Below, piece by piece: positions 5,349-42,850 of a stretch of 64,000 nt of DNA (position 1 is its first letter; every line of letters begins with the position of its first letter). Source of the DNA: Lacipirellula parvula (lineage in GTDB: Bacteria; Planctomycetota; Planctomycetia; Pirellulales; Lacipirellulaceae); contig NZ_AP021861.1 of NCBI RefSeq assembly GCF_009177095.1, positions 310,001-374,000 on the forward strand, read 5' to 3'. Below the pieces are notes generated by a model. The model had not been told where the DNA came from and did not search any database. It saw nothing but the letters and a program-made list of their open reading frames with translations. Made by a program: the position numbers and the translations under genes.

Positions 5349-5526
5349 TCAGTGGTCTGTCGTCAGTTGTCAGTTGCTAAATGCGTGAGAGTGGAAGGTC
5401 GAGCGAACATTAAAGCCACCGGCTCCGCCGGTGGACGCGGCTGGAGCAAGGCTAGCGAGCACTTCGTCCACCGGCGGAGCCGGTGGCTTGTATTAGCAAC
5501 TGACAACGGACCACTGACAACTGACA
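5349..5526. repeat. Nested palindromic element between ATPase and permease genes
   Basis: Two perfect 24-base inverted arms (5413-5436 and 5466-5489) face each other across a 29-base loop. Each arm is itself a hairpin built on CCACCGGC/GCCGGTGG. Outside them a second imperfect pair runs from about 5349-5380 to 5493-5524 (TTGTCAGTTGCTAA opposite TTAGCAACTGACAA). The element fills the roughly 220-base gap between two genes that should be co-transcribed. Confidence 0.85.
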
Positions 5527-22400: not shown

Positions 22401-22429
22401 GCTCCGGCGGGTCGTTGACCCGCGGCTAC
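22401..22429 (+). repeat. Short hairpin repeat, copy C (stem CGGGTC/GACCCG)
   Basis: GCTCCGG, a hairpin CGGGTC-GTT-GACCCG and CGGCT follow each other. Related copies lie at 34407-34436 (same stem) and 30478-30507 (opposite orientation, stem CCGGTC/GACCGG). It sits 15 bases before the next start codon. Confidence 0.75.
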
Positions 22430-34406: not shown

Positions 34407-34436
34407 GCTCCGGCGGGTCGTTGACCCGCGGCTGCT
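34407..34436 (+). repeat. Short hairpin repeat, copy A (stem CGGGTC/GACCCG)
   Basis: Thirty bases matching the copy at 22401-22429 almost exactly and the copy at 30478-30507 except for a compensated base pair. It ends about ten bases before the putative tRNA promoter. Confidence 0.8.
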
Positions 34437-39563: not shown

Positions 39564-40145
39564 TCAGGCCAACGGATCTTCCAGCGAATCGAAGCCGAAC
39601 TCTTCGATTGGGCGAGCGAGGACGTCGTCGGGTTCGAACGCGGCGGCCTGGGCTTCTTCGGTTGCGGCGGGGCGGACCATCACGCGATTCGCGCGGACCT
39701 CGACGATGACCACCGGCTGACCCGGCTCGATGGCGATTCCCTGACTAACGGCGTCGATCAGCCTGCCATCGACGAGCACCGCCCCGCTGGGGAGCATCAG
39801 CGATTGAGCGACGCCGACGCGGCCGACGAGGCCGCGGCGCGGATCATCGGGTTTCGTCTCTTCCTCGCTGGGCAATTCGCCGAGAATGGCTCGCCCCATC
39901 GGCGTCTTCGGCCAGATCTTAAGCGCGAGCCCAATGGCGAGCGGGATCGCTAGCCCGGCGACTGCCATGAAGCTGAGGCCCGTGGTGAGGCTGCGATTGA
40001 ACGCGACGACGATGCTCGCCACGACGGCGATAAACGCGAGGAAACTGAGAATCCCGCCGGAAGGGATAAACGTCTCGAGCGCGATCAGGCCGCAGCCGAC
40101 CACCAGCAACACGACCGCCCAACCAATTGGATCGAGCAGATTCAT
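39564..40145 (-). CDS. Short NfeD-type membrane protein
   Basis: A 193-residue NfeD1b-like protein. Three or four membrane helices occupy residues ~8-90 (GWAVVLLVVGCGLIALETFIP, LSFLAFIAVVASIVVAFN, FMAVAGLAIPLAIGLAL). The C-terminal OB-fold follows (about 105-170: RRGLVGRVGVAQSLMLPSGAVL, PVVIVEVRANRVMVRP). NfeD proteins are partners of SPFH proteins such as FloA, whose gene is the next one. The acidic tail (EFGFDSLEDPLA) is of unknown role. It lacks the ClpP-like protease domain, which is present in the upstream gene. Confidence 0.9.
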   Translation of the reverse strand: MNLLDPIGWAVVLLVVGCGLIALETFIPSGGILSFLAFIAVVASIVVAFNRSLTTGLSFMAVAGLAIPLAIGLALKIWPKTPMGRAILGELPSEEETKPDDPRRGLVGRVGVAQSLMLPSGAVLVDGRLIDAVSQGIAIEPGQPVVIVEVRANRVMVRPAATEEAQAAAFEPDDVLARPIEEFGFDSLEDPLA

Positions 40146-40291
40146 AGGGCAGGAGTTTCTCTGATGCTTCGCGCGGCGATTTTTAGGACGCTGGGCATTC
40201 TAGCACGCTGCGGCAAGCGGCGGCAAAGTGGAGGGGATGTCCGTAGTCAGTGGTCAGTTGCCGTCGATGGGCATCGCGTTCAACGAATTTG

Positions 40292-40496
40292 GAACGCTGC
40301 CGGCGTTCAATCTTCCAGCCCGGGGTTGATCGCTATGCGATCTACCCCGGGTACATTCGCGTATCGTGCCGCAACCCTGAAAGGGTTGAATCATCTGCAA
40401 CCCTTTCAGGGTTGTGGTCAATAAAGGCGGCGGTTGCCCGGGGTAGATTGCCGCGCAATCAACCCCGGGCTGGATGCTAGAACGCTTTCAGCGTTC
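40292..40496. repeat. Mirror-symmetric array of six hairpins (palindrome of palindromes)
   Basis: Six small hairpins lie at 40292-40308, 40315-40351, 40372-40388, 40398-40414, 40437-40473 and 40480-40496. The first matches the sixth, the second the fifth, and the third the fourth, each as inverted copies. The third and fourth are exact 17-base reverse complements (CAACCCT-GAA-AGGGTTG). The second and fifth share the stem CCCGGGGT/ACCCCGGG, and differ inside by GATCGC/GCGATC versus GATTGC/GCAATC, a compensated base pair. The whole fills the gap between the long and short NfeD genes. Confidence 0.9.
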
Positions 40497-40528: not shown

Positions 40529-42850
40529 TCACGTCGCCGCGCGAACGAGCACGCGATTGGCGTGGGCTGCGATGACGACGACGCGCGTGCCGCGATCAAG
40601 CGGAATCCCCTCGGCAATGACGTCGACAAGTTGCCCGCCCACGAGAGCGCGGCCGCCAGGGCGAAGGTCGGTCATTGCTTCGCCGACGACGCCGATTAAG
40701 TGAGAGTAGTCGGCAATCGCCTCGCGGTGGGAAAGCGTGATGCGTTCTTCCGGGGCCGGCGGTTCAAGCACGAGGCGGTTGAAGATCGGCGCCTTCGGTA
40801 GGAAGCGGCGCAGAGCGACTGCCAGCCCGATGACGCCGAGTCCTGCGCCGATGACGATCGACATCGACCGTCGCATCTCGTCCATTTCGGCGCCACTGGT
40901 CGGAAAGGTGAAGGTCTGGCTCGCGAGGATTAGGGAGAAGATCACCATCAAGCCGCCAGCGAGCCCGAAGATTCCCATGCCGGGGACGACGAAGATTTCG
41001 AGCAGCAGCAGCACGATGCCGCCAACGAACATCACGATCTCTAGCGAGGTGGCGGTCCCTTCGAGCGACTTGCTCCAGAAGAAGAGCAGGAACGCGATCG
41101 CCGCCACGACCCCGCCGACGCCAACGCCAGGGGTTTTCATTTCGATGTACATGCCGACGAGGCCGAGCATCAGCAGGAACGTCGCGAGCCCCGGCGAAGC
41201 GAGAGCGCGGACGAGCTTCATCGCCCAGTTCAATTCGGCGTGTTGCACGTCGACGCCGTAGAGCCGTTCGAGTTGCTCGAAGTTGTCGACGGTTTGAAAG
41301 GCGATGCCGGCGTCGAGTGCGTCCGTGCCGCGAAGTTGGAGTAGTTCGTTGCCGGCGTGAAGCGCGGGGCCCTGCGTCCAGTTGGCGCCGTCGCGCAATT
41401 CGCCCGCTTCTTCGACGCTCATCCAGCGCGTGACGCCGGTGTTCTTGTTGCGATACTGAAAGAGCTCGACCTGCGGATCGATCATCGCGTCGAGCAGCGA
41501 CCAGCTGCGGTTCGTCTTTCCGGCGAGCGAACTACGGAGGCTAACTTCCGCGGACGCGACGGCGGCGCGTAGGCCTTTGACGTCGATCTCGTCGCGCGGT
41601 TGGAAGCCGCGGCGACGGCGCGGGTTTGGCGGGAGGTTGCGATTGTTGTCGTCGTTGCGGCCCGCCTCGGCGAGATCGGGCGCGATGCCGATCGTCGCGT
41701 CGGGCGCCATGACGAGTTGATCGCAGGCGAGCGCAACGATGGCGGCGCCCCCCTTCGCTTCGACGGGGACGTACGCCACCGTGCGCACGGCGTTGGCGTC
41801 GAGTTCCGCCAACTGATTGGCGAGCGTCAGGCAAGCGTCGAGATCGCCGCCAACGCTATCGATGCGCACGCCGATCCAGTTCGCGCCGCCGTCGAGATGA
41901 GTCGTCAGCAGCGTCGACGCTTGGCTTACCTCGTCAGGAGTGATCTCGCCGCGCACGGTGATCATGACCGCTTTCCAATCGGCGATGAGCGATTGATCGA
42001 TCTCCAGCGATTCAAGCGGAATCGAGAGCGCCTTGGCGACGTCGGCTTTATCGGCTGCGAGGTATTTCACAAACCCGAATTGCCGTCCTTCGCGTCCGGT
42101 GAACTCGCCGATGGAGCCGGCGGGGATCAGCGTGCGCTCGGAGATGACTTCGTTGTCGCTGCGGAAAGCTTCGACCTCTTCGCGCAACAAGAAGCGAACG
42201 CCTTCGTCACTCTCGATCTGGATCACCTCGACGGCGGGGTCGGTCATGCCGATGGCGAGTGCGACGGGAATCGTCCGCTTCGCGTCGGCAATCTCGCGGT
42301 AGGCCTCGACGACGGTGCTGCTGATTGCTTGATCCGCCGGTTCGTCGGCGGCAGCGTCGCCGATGCGGGCGTCGGCGGGCATGATGATTTCTTCGCATGC
42401 GATCGCCGCGAGCAGGCCGTGGCCTCGCAACGAGTCGGGCAGCCAAGCGACGGTTTTCACGTCGGCCATGTCGCGGCTTTCGAGGAACCGTGCGAGCGAG
42501 AAAACAGTTTCAAACTGGCTGCCGGCGCCAGCCGATTCGCCGGGAGCGTCGAACCGCAGCACTAAAATCGGTCGGCGACCATCGCCCCGTTGTCGGCTCT
42601 CGGCGACGAGTCGATCACGCGCGCGGGTGATCATTTGCTTGAGCGGGGCTTCGCCGCCGCTGCCGAGCGGCAGCTTCACCTCGACCATCGCCGCGAGGCC
42701 TGGTTGCGGCAGGTTGGCGGCGCCATCTGCTGCGGGGGCTGCTTCCAGCGCCTGGCAGACGCCGCTGGAGAATGTGGCGGCGACTAGCGCGAAGAGTGCG
42801 AGACAGCGCCAGGAGGCGCGAGCGGCGATCAGTGCGTTCGACTTGTTCAT
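40529..42850 (-). CDS. Long NfeD protein with two degenerate ClpP-like domains
   Basis: A 773-residue envelope protein. Signal peptide at residues ~1-35; a first ClpP/crotonase-like domain (core about 130-165: VKTVAWLPDSLRGHGLLAAI); a second copy (core about 355-390: VRTVAYVPVEAKGGAAIV and ALACDQLVMAPDATIG, with IDSVGGDLDACLTLANQ just before); four or five membrane helices (~565-690); and a C-terminal NfeD OB-fold. In known NfeD proteases the serine nucleophile lies in a G-x-R-A-A-S-A-type segment; neither domain here shows a serine there, so proteolysis may be lost. It leads the minus-strand cluster with short NfeD and floA, with a possible promoter at 42907. Confidence 0.88.
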   Translation of the reverse strand: MNKSNALIAARASWRCLALFALVAATFSSGVCQALEAAPAADGAANLPQPGLAAMVEVKLPLGSGGEAPLKQMITRARDRLVAESRQRGDGRRPILVLRFDAPGESAGAGSQFETVFSLARFLESRDMADVKTVAWLPDSLRGHGLLAAIACEEIIMPADARIGDAAADEPADQAISSTVVEAYREIADAKRTIPVALAIGMTDPAVEVIQIESDEGVRFLLREEVEAFRSDNEVISERTLIPAGSIGEFTGREGRQFGFVKYLAADKADVAKALSIPLESLEIDQSLIADWKAVMITVRGEITPDEVSQASTLLTTHLDGGANWIGVRIDSVGGDLDACLTLANQLAELDANAVRTVAYVPVEAKGGAAIVALACDQLVMAPDATIGIAPDLAEAGRNDDNNRNLPPNPRRRRGFQPRDEIDVKGLRAAVASAEVSLRSSLAGKTNRSWSLLDAMIDPQVELFQYRNKNTGVTRWMSVEEAGELRDGANWTQGPALHAGNELLQLRGTDALDAGIAFQTVDNFEQLERLYGVDVQHAELNWAMKLVRALASPGLATFLLMLGLVGMYIEMKTPGVGVGGVVAAIAFLLFFWSKSLEGTATSLEIVMFVGGIVLLLLEIFVVPGMGIFGLAGGLMVIFSLILASQTFTFPTSGAEMDEMRRSMSIVIGAGLGVIGLAVALRRFLPKAPIFNRLVLEPPAPEERITLSHREAIADYSHLIGVVGEAMTDLRPGGRALVGGQLVDVIAEGIPLDRGTRVVVIAAHANRVLVRAAT

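Follow-up and report, generated by a model that had tools for sequence, protein, structure and literature searches.

The closest described systems all involve Y1 transposases. Conserved inverted ends, a length-constrained spacer and compensatory changes are already known for REPINs (PMC3116915), and for TnpA_REP the rules for the foot, the stem mismatch and cleavage at CT have been set out (PMC8266576). A 2018 survey of TnpAY1 proteins characterizes subclass 1.2 by the motifs DH[IV]H, WQ and Y---Q--HH, a length of about 148 aa and a tail of about 30 aa; it enters "no" for this subclass under REP and gives it as generally without terminal structures (PMC6006769). TIRtrons and TIRYTs carry a Y1 transposase within long, sometimes doubly palindromic inverted repeats (PMC3733652), and 20 of the 26 published TIRtron examples fall in subclass 2.1 (PMC6006769).

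Here we analyze an array of six hairpins in a 64,000-nt stretch of Lacipirellula parvula DNA (the window; contig NZ_AP021861.1, positions 310,001 to 374,000). Judged from sequence, the array is very probably a non-autonomous mobile element, REPIN- or MITE-like: an IS200-like element reduced to its two mirrored three-hairpin ends and lacking the transposase gene that such ends enclose in relatives.

An ordered three-hairpin unit and its inverted copy

The initial annotation described a mirror-symmetric set of six hairpins at 40292-40496, and the symmetry is present: the 60-nt outer arms (40292-40351 and 40437-40496) are 82% complementary and the inner pair (40369-40388 and 40398-40417) 95%. We refine this description in one respect: the six hairpins are two inverted copies of one three-hairpin unit, and the natural unit is the ordered half of about 98 nt together with its inverted partner. 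Each half runs from H1 (17 nt) through a 10-nt linker ending in CCAG, H2 (33 nt) and a spacer to H3 (17 nt). The halves are arranged head-out, with the H3 hairpins facing each other across 9 nt. The features, in window coordinates, are as follows (R1 is the covariance model introduced below).

40292-40388, plus strand: left half-unit (H1-linker-H2-spacer-H3); R1 match of 96.9 bits, E 5.4e-18
40292-40308, plus strand: left H1 hairpin, 17 nt
40315-40318, plus strand: CCAG foot 5' of H2, a putative guide-like tetranucleotide
40319-40351, plus strand: left H2 hairpin, 33 nt, with an internal T.T mismatch
40352-40371, plus strand: left spacer, 20 nt, of variable sequence
40372-40388, plus strand: left H3 hairpin, 17 nt
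40389-40397, no strand: centre, 9 nt; the position of the transposase gene in gene-carrying relatives (L103, L085)
40398-40496, minus strand: right half-unit, inverted; R1 match of 99.6 bits, E 1.3e-18
40398-40414, minus strand: right H3 hairpin
40415-40436, minus strand: right spacer, 22 nt
40437-40469, minus strand: right H2 hairpin, with its CCAG foot at 40470-40473
40480-40496, minus strand: right H1 hairpin

The compensated difference reported between the H2 hairpins (GATCGC/GCGATC against GATTGC/GCAATC) is found in the sequence, as is the difference between the H1 hairpins, which is T.G in the left half and T-A in the right when each is read on its own H1-to-H3 strand.

Several other labels for the array were discarded. 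The Rfam model RF04104 (MIR918) matched 40293-40495 with 60 bits against a gathering score of 268; this reflects generic long-hairpin pairing, a single-hairpin miRNA model picking up a long palindrome, and the match disappeared with a shorter stretch. RF01754 (radC) was rejected with a score of 24 against 40. CRISPR-like and attC readings were dropped on inspection, the units being inverted pairs and not repeat-spacer arrays.

The unit is dispersed in the host genome and its structure is constrained

The array is not unique, as a whole-genome search of the kind suggested in the initial annotation revealed. A DNA search of the host genome with the array gave 36 strand-matches. The covariance model R1, built only from host copies (27 of 28 half-units), detected 32 half-units with E < 1e-6 at 18 places, which comprise 4 single halves and 14 mirrored pairs, all of the latter head-out. 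For the H3 core CAACCCTNNNNGGGTTG the search gave 45 strand-matches, corresponding to 27 distinct places, and for its reversed control none; the CAACCCTNNNNGGGTTG places listed all lie inside the 18 array places. Among 27 half-units, the foot 5' of H2 is CCAG in 23, TCAG in 3 and CTAG in 1, and the H2 mismatch is present in 26. Since the closest full-length copy of the window array is 83% identical to it, the family looks old in this genome. Neither a target duplication nor a common target was seen at the host copies. A second dispersed palindromic repeat, CGGCGGGTCGTTGACCCG, occurs on the plus strand at 22405-22422 and 34411-34428 of the window; allowing at most 1 mismatch, the host genome contains 63 forward and 59 reverse matches to it (control 0), and it adjoins several window-family copies.

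The hairpins are structurally constrained. Across the 27 half-units from the host, 98.4% of pairing cells are paired (shuffled mean 91.1%), 11 of 28 pairs show changes on both sides (shuffled mean 6.2), and the covariation score is 0.246 against 0.110 for shuffled alignments, with 0 of 500 shuffles as high; of the five measures, one (further pair types) did not stand out, 94 of 500 shuffles doing as well. These figures and the empty control for CAACCCTNNNNGGGTTG bear out the earlier view that structured units and not chance account for the differences between hairpins. That view named selection or gene conversion as the cause; exchange between units is suggested by shared spacers in another genome (G210, see below). 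The constraint does not extend to the spacer sequence: mean pairwise identity among host units is 75% for H1, 81% for H2 and 91% for H3, and 30% for the H2-H3 spacer, which measures 18-23 nt.

Conserved hairpins between drifting spacers would also be expected if the array were an RNA element kept by the host at gene 3' ends, as a terminator, mRNA stabilizer or processing site, and had spread only secondarily. The location of the copies is in keeping with this: all 18 are intergenic (by a home-made gene caller), and 9 of the 16 classifiable ones lie between convergent genes, compared with 7 of 47 gene pairs in the window (Fisher p 0.002; 2 edge cases of the 18 left out). A 3'-end position is, however, general among REPs, and the departures from Watson-Crick pairing point elsewhere. 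Read on the H1-to-H3 strand, the host units contain 16 G.T and 1 A.C (p 0.0003; half of the G.T cases come from one pair of H3), besides 11 other mismatches, and the excess holds on both genome strands (10:1 and 6:0). Units flanking transposase genes in other genomes show it too, with 23:7 upstream and 23:6 downstream (together 46:13, p 2e-5), in alignments made to R1, a model with a possible slight bias towards G.T. Since an element has its two halves on opposite strands, the asymmetry fits no single transcript, but rather a strand-specific recognition of each unit; with G.T exceeding A.C on the H1-to-H3 strand of both halves, processing of single-stranded DNA fits better than a role in the nfeD mRNA. 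Part of this strand count, like the foot count for transposase-flanking units below, comes from units selected or aligned by R1.

The nfeD locus

The array lies between two nfeD-type genes:

40529-42850, minus strand: long nfeD-type ORF of 773 aa, with 32 nt between its stop and the array
39564-40145, minus strand: short nfeD-type ORF, 193 aa
40197-40202, minus strand: TAGAAT, a -10-like box between the array and the short nfeD, putatively part of a promoter

The C-terminal part of the long NfeD is similar to the short protein, and all 29 of 29 genomes, the host among them, have NfeD-type matches. In the four syntenic relatives read (G001, G003, G004 and G007), the gap between the two genes measures 53-238 nt, compared with 383 nt in the host, and the array is absent from it. 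The nfeD flanks have diverged too far for an empty site to be read base by base, and the absence could reflect loss. G011 was rejected as a syntenic relative, its long nfeD match lying elsewhere. The -10-like box reads TAGAAT in the host, G003 and G004 and TACAAT in G001, and does not occur in G007. The roles in mRNA processing, stability or partial termination that had been proposed for the array are thus unsupported as the reason for its existence, because the asymmetry follows the strand of each half, four syntenic relatives are without the element and the downstream nfeD has its own -10-like box; an incidental effect on nfeD mRNA may nevertheless occur. The same ends also flank a transposase gene in other phyla, as described below, and we regard an origin as a host RNA element as improbable.

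Next to the array, at 40239-40260 on the minus strand, lies a repeat, CAACTGACCACTGACTACGGAC. It has relatives with 3 mismatches at window positions 5355 and 5504, where chance would give none, and a similar sequence is present in the same nfeD gap of G003.

In relatives, a Y1 transposase gene lies between the mirrored units

R1 matches 33 of 59 genomes, host included. In one of them (G012), a 151-aa IS200-like ORF is located exactly between two mirrored half-units of 80.6 and 74.7 bits, and a second (G026) has a Y1_Tnp ORF likewise exactly between mirrored units. A third mirrored element (L093 928-1602, G009:C8) contains a transposase gene interrupted by stops and is possibly an intermediate towards a gene-less element. 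Since R1 units flank the transposase gene in relatives, the window array looks like a gene-less version of that element.

A search of named genomes with these proteins yielded 577 relatives, the best 80 of which, none of them cyanobacterial, were taken as loci. A right-sense R1 unit within 80 nt of the transposase gene was found upstream at 35 of these 80, downstream at 35, on both sides at 26 and on at least one side at 44; the other 36 have none on either side within this distance. Wrong-strand units alone occur upstream at 3 and downstream at 4, and 60 of the 80 show an R1 match of any kind. Of the 26 both-side loci among the best 80, 25 belong to Verrucomicrobiota, Planctomycetota, Bacteroidota, Acidobacteriota or Hydrogenedentota, and one is unassigned; Haloferula sp. 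BvORR071 (L142) and Verrucomicrobium sp. BvORR106 (L148) have units on both sides. R1 matches 26 of 29 genomes of these named loci, picked mostly from loci that already had R1 matches, with 1-73 units each, and 3 have no match; with few candidates scored, the unit counts may be underestimates. Transposases of this type are present in 105 of 196 genomes of the same order.

A three-hairpin detector was also used. With perfect 6-bp stems it found units upstream of 16 of 122 and downstream of 16 of 118 genes, compared with 0 of 610 shuffled and 0 of 738 elsewhere. A relaxed version found 71 of 122 upstream, 74 of 118 downstream and 48 of 117 on both sides, against 10 of 366 shuffled and 47 of 738 elsewhere in the loci; it was relaxed after the first result had been seen, and one of four settings tried is quoted. 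The R1-based flank count is independent of this tuning. Units from different loci resemble one another, which inflates a null of mispaired units; even so, 55 of 99 loci exceed the 99% point of that null (7 of 29 loci of the order had no gene by motif, and 3 with short flanks were dropped).

The ends vary with the transposase. In 49 loci chosen for having units, Mantel tests gave r 0.38 upstream (46 units) and r 0.40 downstream (37 units), with p 2e-4. Ends belonging to the same element resemble each other more closely (0.152 in 36 loci) than those of different elements do (0.341). Of the 83 transposase-flanking units that R1 detected, 80 have the foot nnAG. The proteins carry the motifs DHVH, WQ and YIxxQxxHH; in an alignment of 46 (151 columns) H56, H58, W96, Q97, Y116, Q120 and H124 are invariant, and D55, I117 and H123 occur in at least 90%. 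All 4 proteins scanned match PF01797, and 2 of the 4 pass the NCBIfam IS200 cut-off. For the L117 protein, the predicted structure (pLDDT 93.6) comes closest to ISDra2 TnpA and other Y1 transposases of this kind, that of IS608 among them (E 1e-8 to 1e-6), followed by the E. coli RAYT 4er8 (E 5e-5). The G012 transposase (L103 1584-2039) is 77-78% identical to two Verrucomicrobiota proteins among the best 80 of 577 and at most 54% identical to the three Pirellulales proteins compared; this suggests that the gene may have passed between phyla.

H3 ends a median of 23 nt ahead of the transposase ATG, a distance at which the units could be regulatory sequences of that gene only, for example hiding its ribosome-binding site, and have been copied by chance. 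Units in mirrored orientation are found after the stop codon as well, and most host copies have no gene, so this is hardly a probable account of the array.

The host transposase gene and a sister family

The host genome contains one gene of this transposase group:

G000:C1:2347050-2347710 (L007 1370-2030): host subclass-1.2 transposase element, gene at 2347168-2347614

Its ends have the same layout as the window units and other sequences, and R1 finds its downstream end only, as a weak match. A genome search with the H2 of this element, CCAGGGGCnnnnGCCCCTGG, gave 79 places (control 0). For the 50 places listed, 20 pairs with a spacing of 116-143 nt account for 40; 2 more lie on either side of the gene and 8 are single. 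In all 17 distinct copies examined GTAG stands at exactly one foot, which is the hallmark of REPs. The host gene with its ends and the dispersed H2 thus represent gene-carrying and gene-less forms within one genome, and the window family, with its CCAG foot, is a sister of this family. The proposal that the array is the footprint of a REP-type element mobilized by a RAYT-like transposase was essentially right, with the amendment that the ends belong to a distinct Y1 transposase group and that gene-carrying versions exist. As for the transposase itself, a subclass-1.2-type gene is there; a partner with window-type ends was found neither in the host nor in its genus.

Three further Y1_Tnp matches in the host (L008-L010), together with palindromes mirrored as in BIMEs, would allow a canonical REP/BIME family spread by a class-2 RAYT of the host; this we consider very unlikely, since L008-L010 have no R1 unit and the end-bearing genes encode YIxxQxxHH and not the class-2 motif Y---NP (PMC6006769).

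Comparison with described elements

With REPINs and BIMEs and their RAYTs, the array shares inverted conserved palindromes, a less conserved spacer of constrained length, compensatory changes and an intergenic location, as well as strand-specific REP recognition, a 5' foot, a stem mismatch and a Y1 enzyme (PMC3116915, PMC8266576). The dispersed intergenic pairs of inverted palindromes are those of a canonical REPIN. The halves in the window differ in holding three ordered hairpins over about 98 nt, and the canonical foot GT[AG]G is found in the sister family (17 of 17) and not in the window family, where it is CCAG. The associated transposase is class 1 by motif, lacking the Y---NP of RAYTs (TnpAY1 class 2), and its gene can sit inside the mirrored pair. 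By these sequence features the array is neither a canonical REP, given its foot, nor, by motif, the partner of a RAYT.

The IS200/IS605 family (IS608, ISDra2) likewise has an HUH-Y1 transposase of the IS200 fold, here the nearest among solved structures, and a gene between structured ends. In contrast to its single subterminal hairpins, the ends described here are mirrored three-hairpin units, and in the host gene-less copies outnumber gene copies. Gene-less copies of the ends of a gene-carrying element, as in MITEs, are seen both for G012 and G026 against the host arrays and for the host gene against its own copies.

Motifs (DHVH, WQ and YIxxQxxHH in 46 aligned proteins, the assignment being by motif), a length of about 150 aa and low copy number agree with subclass 1.2 as published. 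Unlike in the published account of that subclass, the genes here are often flanked by structures (R1 units at 44 of the best 80 of 577 loci) and accompanied by dispersed gene-less copies; this disagrees with the published statement that the group has no REP-like partners (PMC6006769). TIRtrons and TIRYTs also have a Y1 transposase flanked by inverted repeats, with dispersed repeats in some genomes; the fixed order H1-H2-H3 was not met in the TIRtron text, to which, without the figures, this comparison was confined (PMC3733652). TnpAY1 class 3 resembles our case in occurring in Planctomycetes with atypical flanking structures and many dispersed copies, but has YV[VI][AENY]EQ, W[TA] and a CnGA foot in place of YIxxQxxHH, WQ and nnAG (PMC6006769).

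The array is probably best filed as a subclass-1.2 Y1 element (the class being assigned by motif) in its triple-hairpin form without the gene, and would work as a REPIN does and also as a MITE derived from IS200. Demonstrated here are its dispersal and mirrored layout, the covariation, the existence of relatives with the gene, and ends that co-vary with the transposase; no transposition event was seen. We found no description of the three-hairpin unit in the literature (subscription papers, figures and supplements lay outside the search), and a literature search by sequence returned only papers that look unrelated by title. Our results tie dispersed hairpin repeats, present in genomes of Planctomycetota, Verrucomicrobiota, Acidobacteriota, Hydrogenedentota and some Bacteroidota, to one transposase group.

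A possible mechanism and the lineages of half-units

In the mechanism we propose, an HUH-Y1 transposase (subclass 1.2 by motif) would recognize the half-unit in the H1-to-H3 sense on exposed single strands. H2, with its mismatch and the 5' nnAG or GTAG foot, would act as the REP hairpin and guide, and H1 and H3, held at a near-fixed distance, would complete the recognition site. The enzyme may cut near the element ends and then join the strand elsewhere or prime copying. Hairpins would persist because only units that fit the transposase go on spreading, while spacers drift. We give an even chance to a wider proposal: an undescribed cross-phylum class of mobile elements in which subclass-1.2 Y1 enzymes, far from being free of repeats, would drive triple-hairpin REPINs, both as IS-like gene-carrying copies and as gene-less swarms, with the halves of about 98 nt as side-swapping replicating lineages, the nnAG foot choosing a CT cut at the element end and the spacer acting, through its length and not its sequence, as a ruler between hairpins. 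If it is true, a single genome holds both stages of the route proposed to lead from IS200 to REPIN. The origin of REPINs from IS200-like elements becomes directly testable, because the same ends occur with and without the gene in one genome.

The behaviour of half-units can be followed in G210, the genome of locus L128, a Planctomycetales MAG. In 30 units from 16 stretches selected from the best R1 hits, collected with a pattern allowing 3-4 changes per hairpin, mean identity is 86% for H1, 98% for H2, 96% for H3 and 45% for the spacer (shuffled spacers 31%), and the spacer measures 22-24 nt in 29 of the 30. Active diversification of spacers was dropped as an explanation, spacers common to copies pointing to drift along element lineages. 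An identical spacer occurs in the right half of one element (L286) and the left half of another (L292), so halves seem to swap sides. Two 222-nt elements are 95.5% identical, with unrelated flanks. The outer flank ends in TCT in 24 of 30 cases, and we infer that such ends would present the CT at which TnpA_REP is known to cut (PMC8266576); the host copies have no TCT-type end. One further stretch of G210 (L288, G210:C282:4230-4980) contains a composite array with an extra mirrored H3 pair and an H2 inside one element, resembling mosaic BIMEs.
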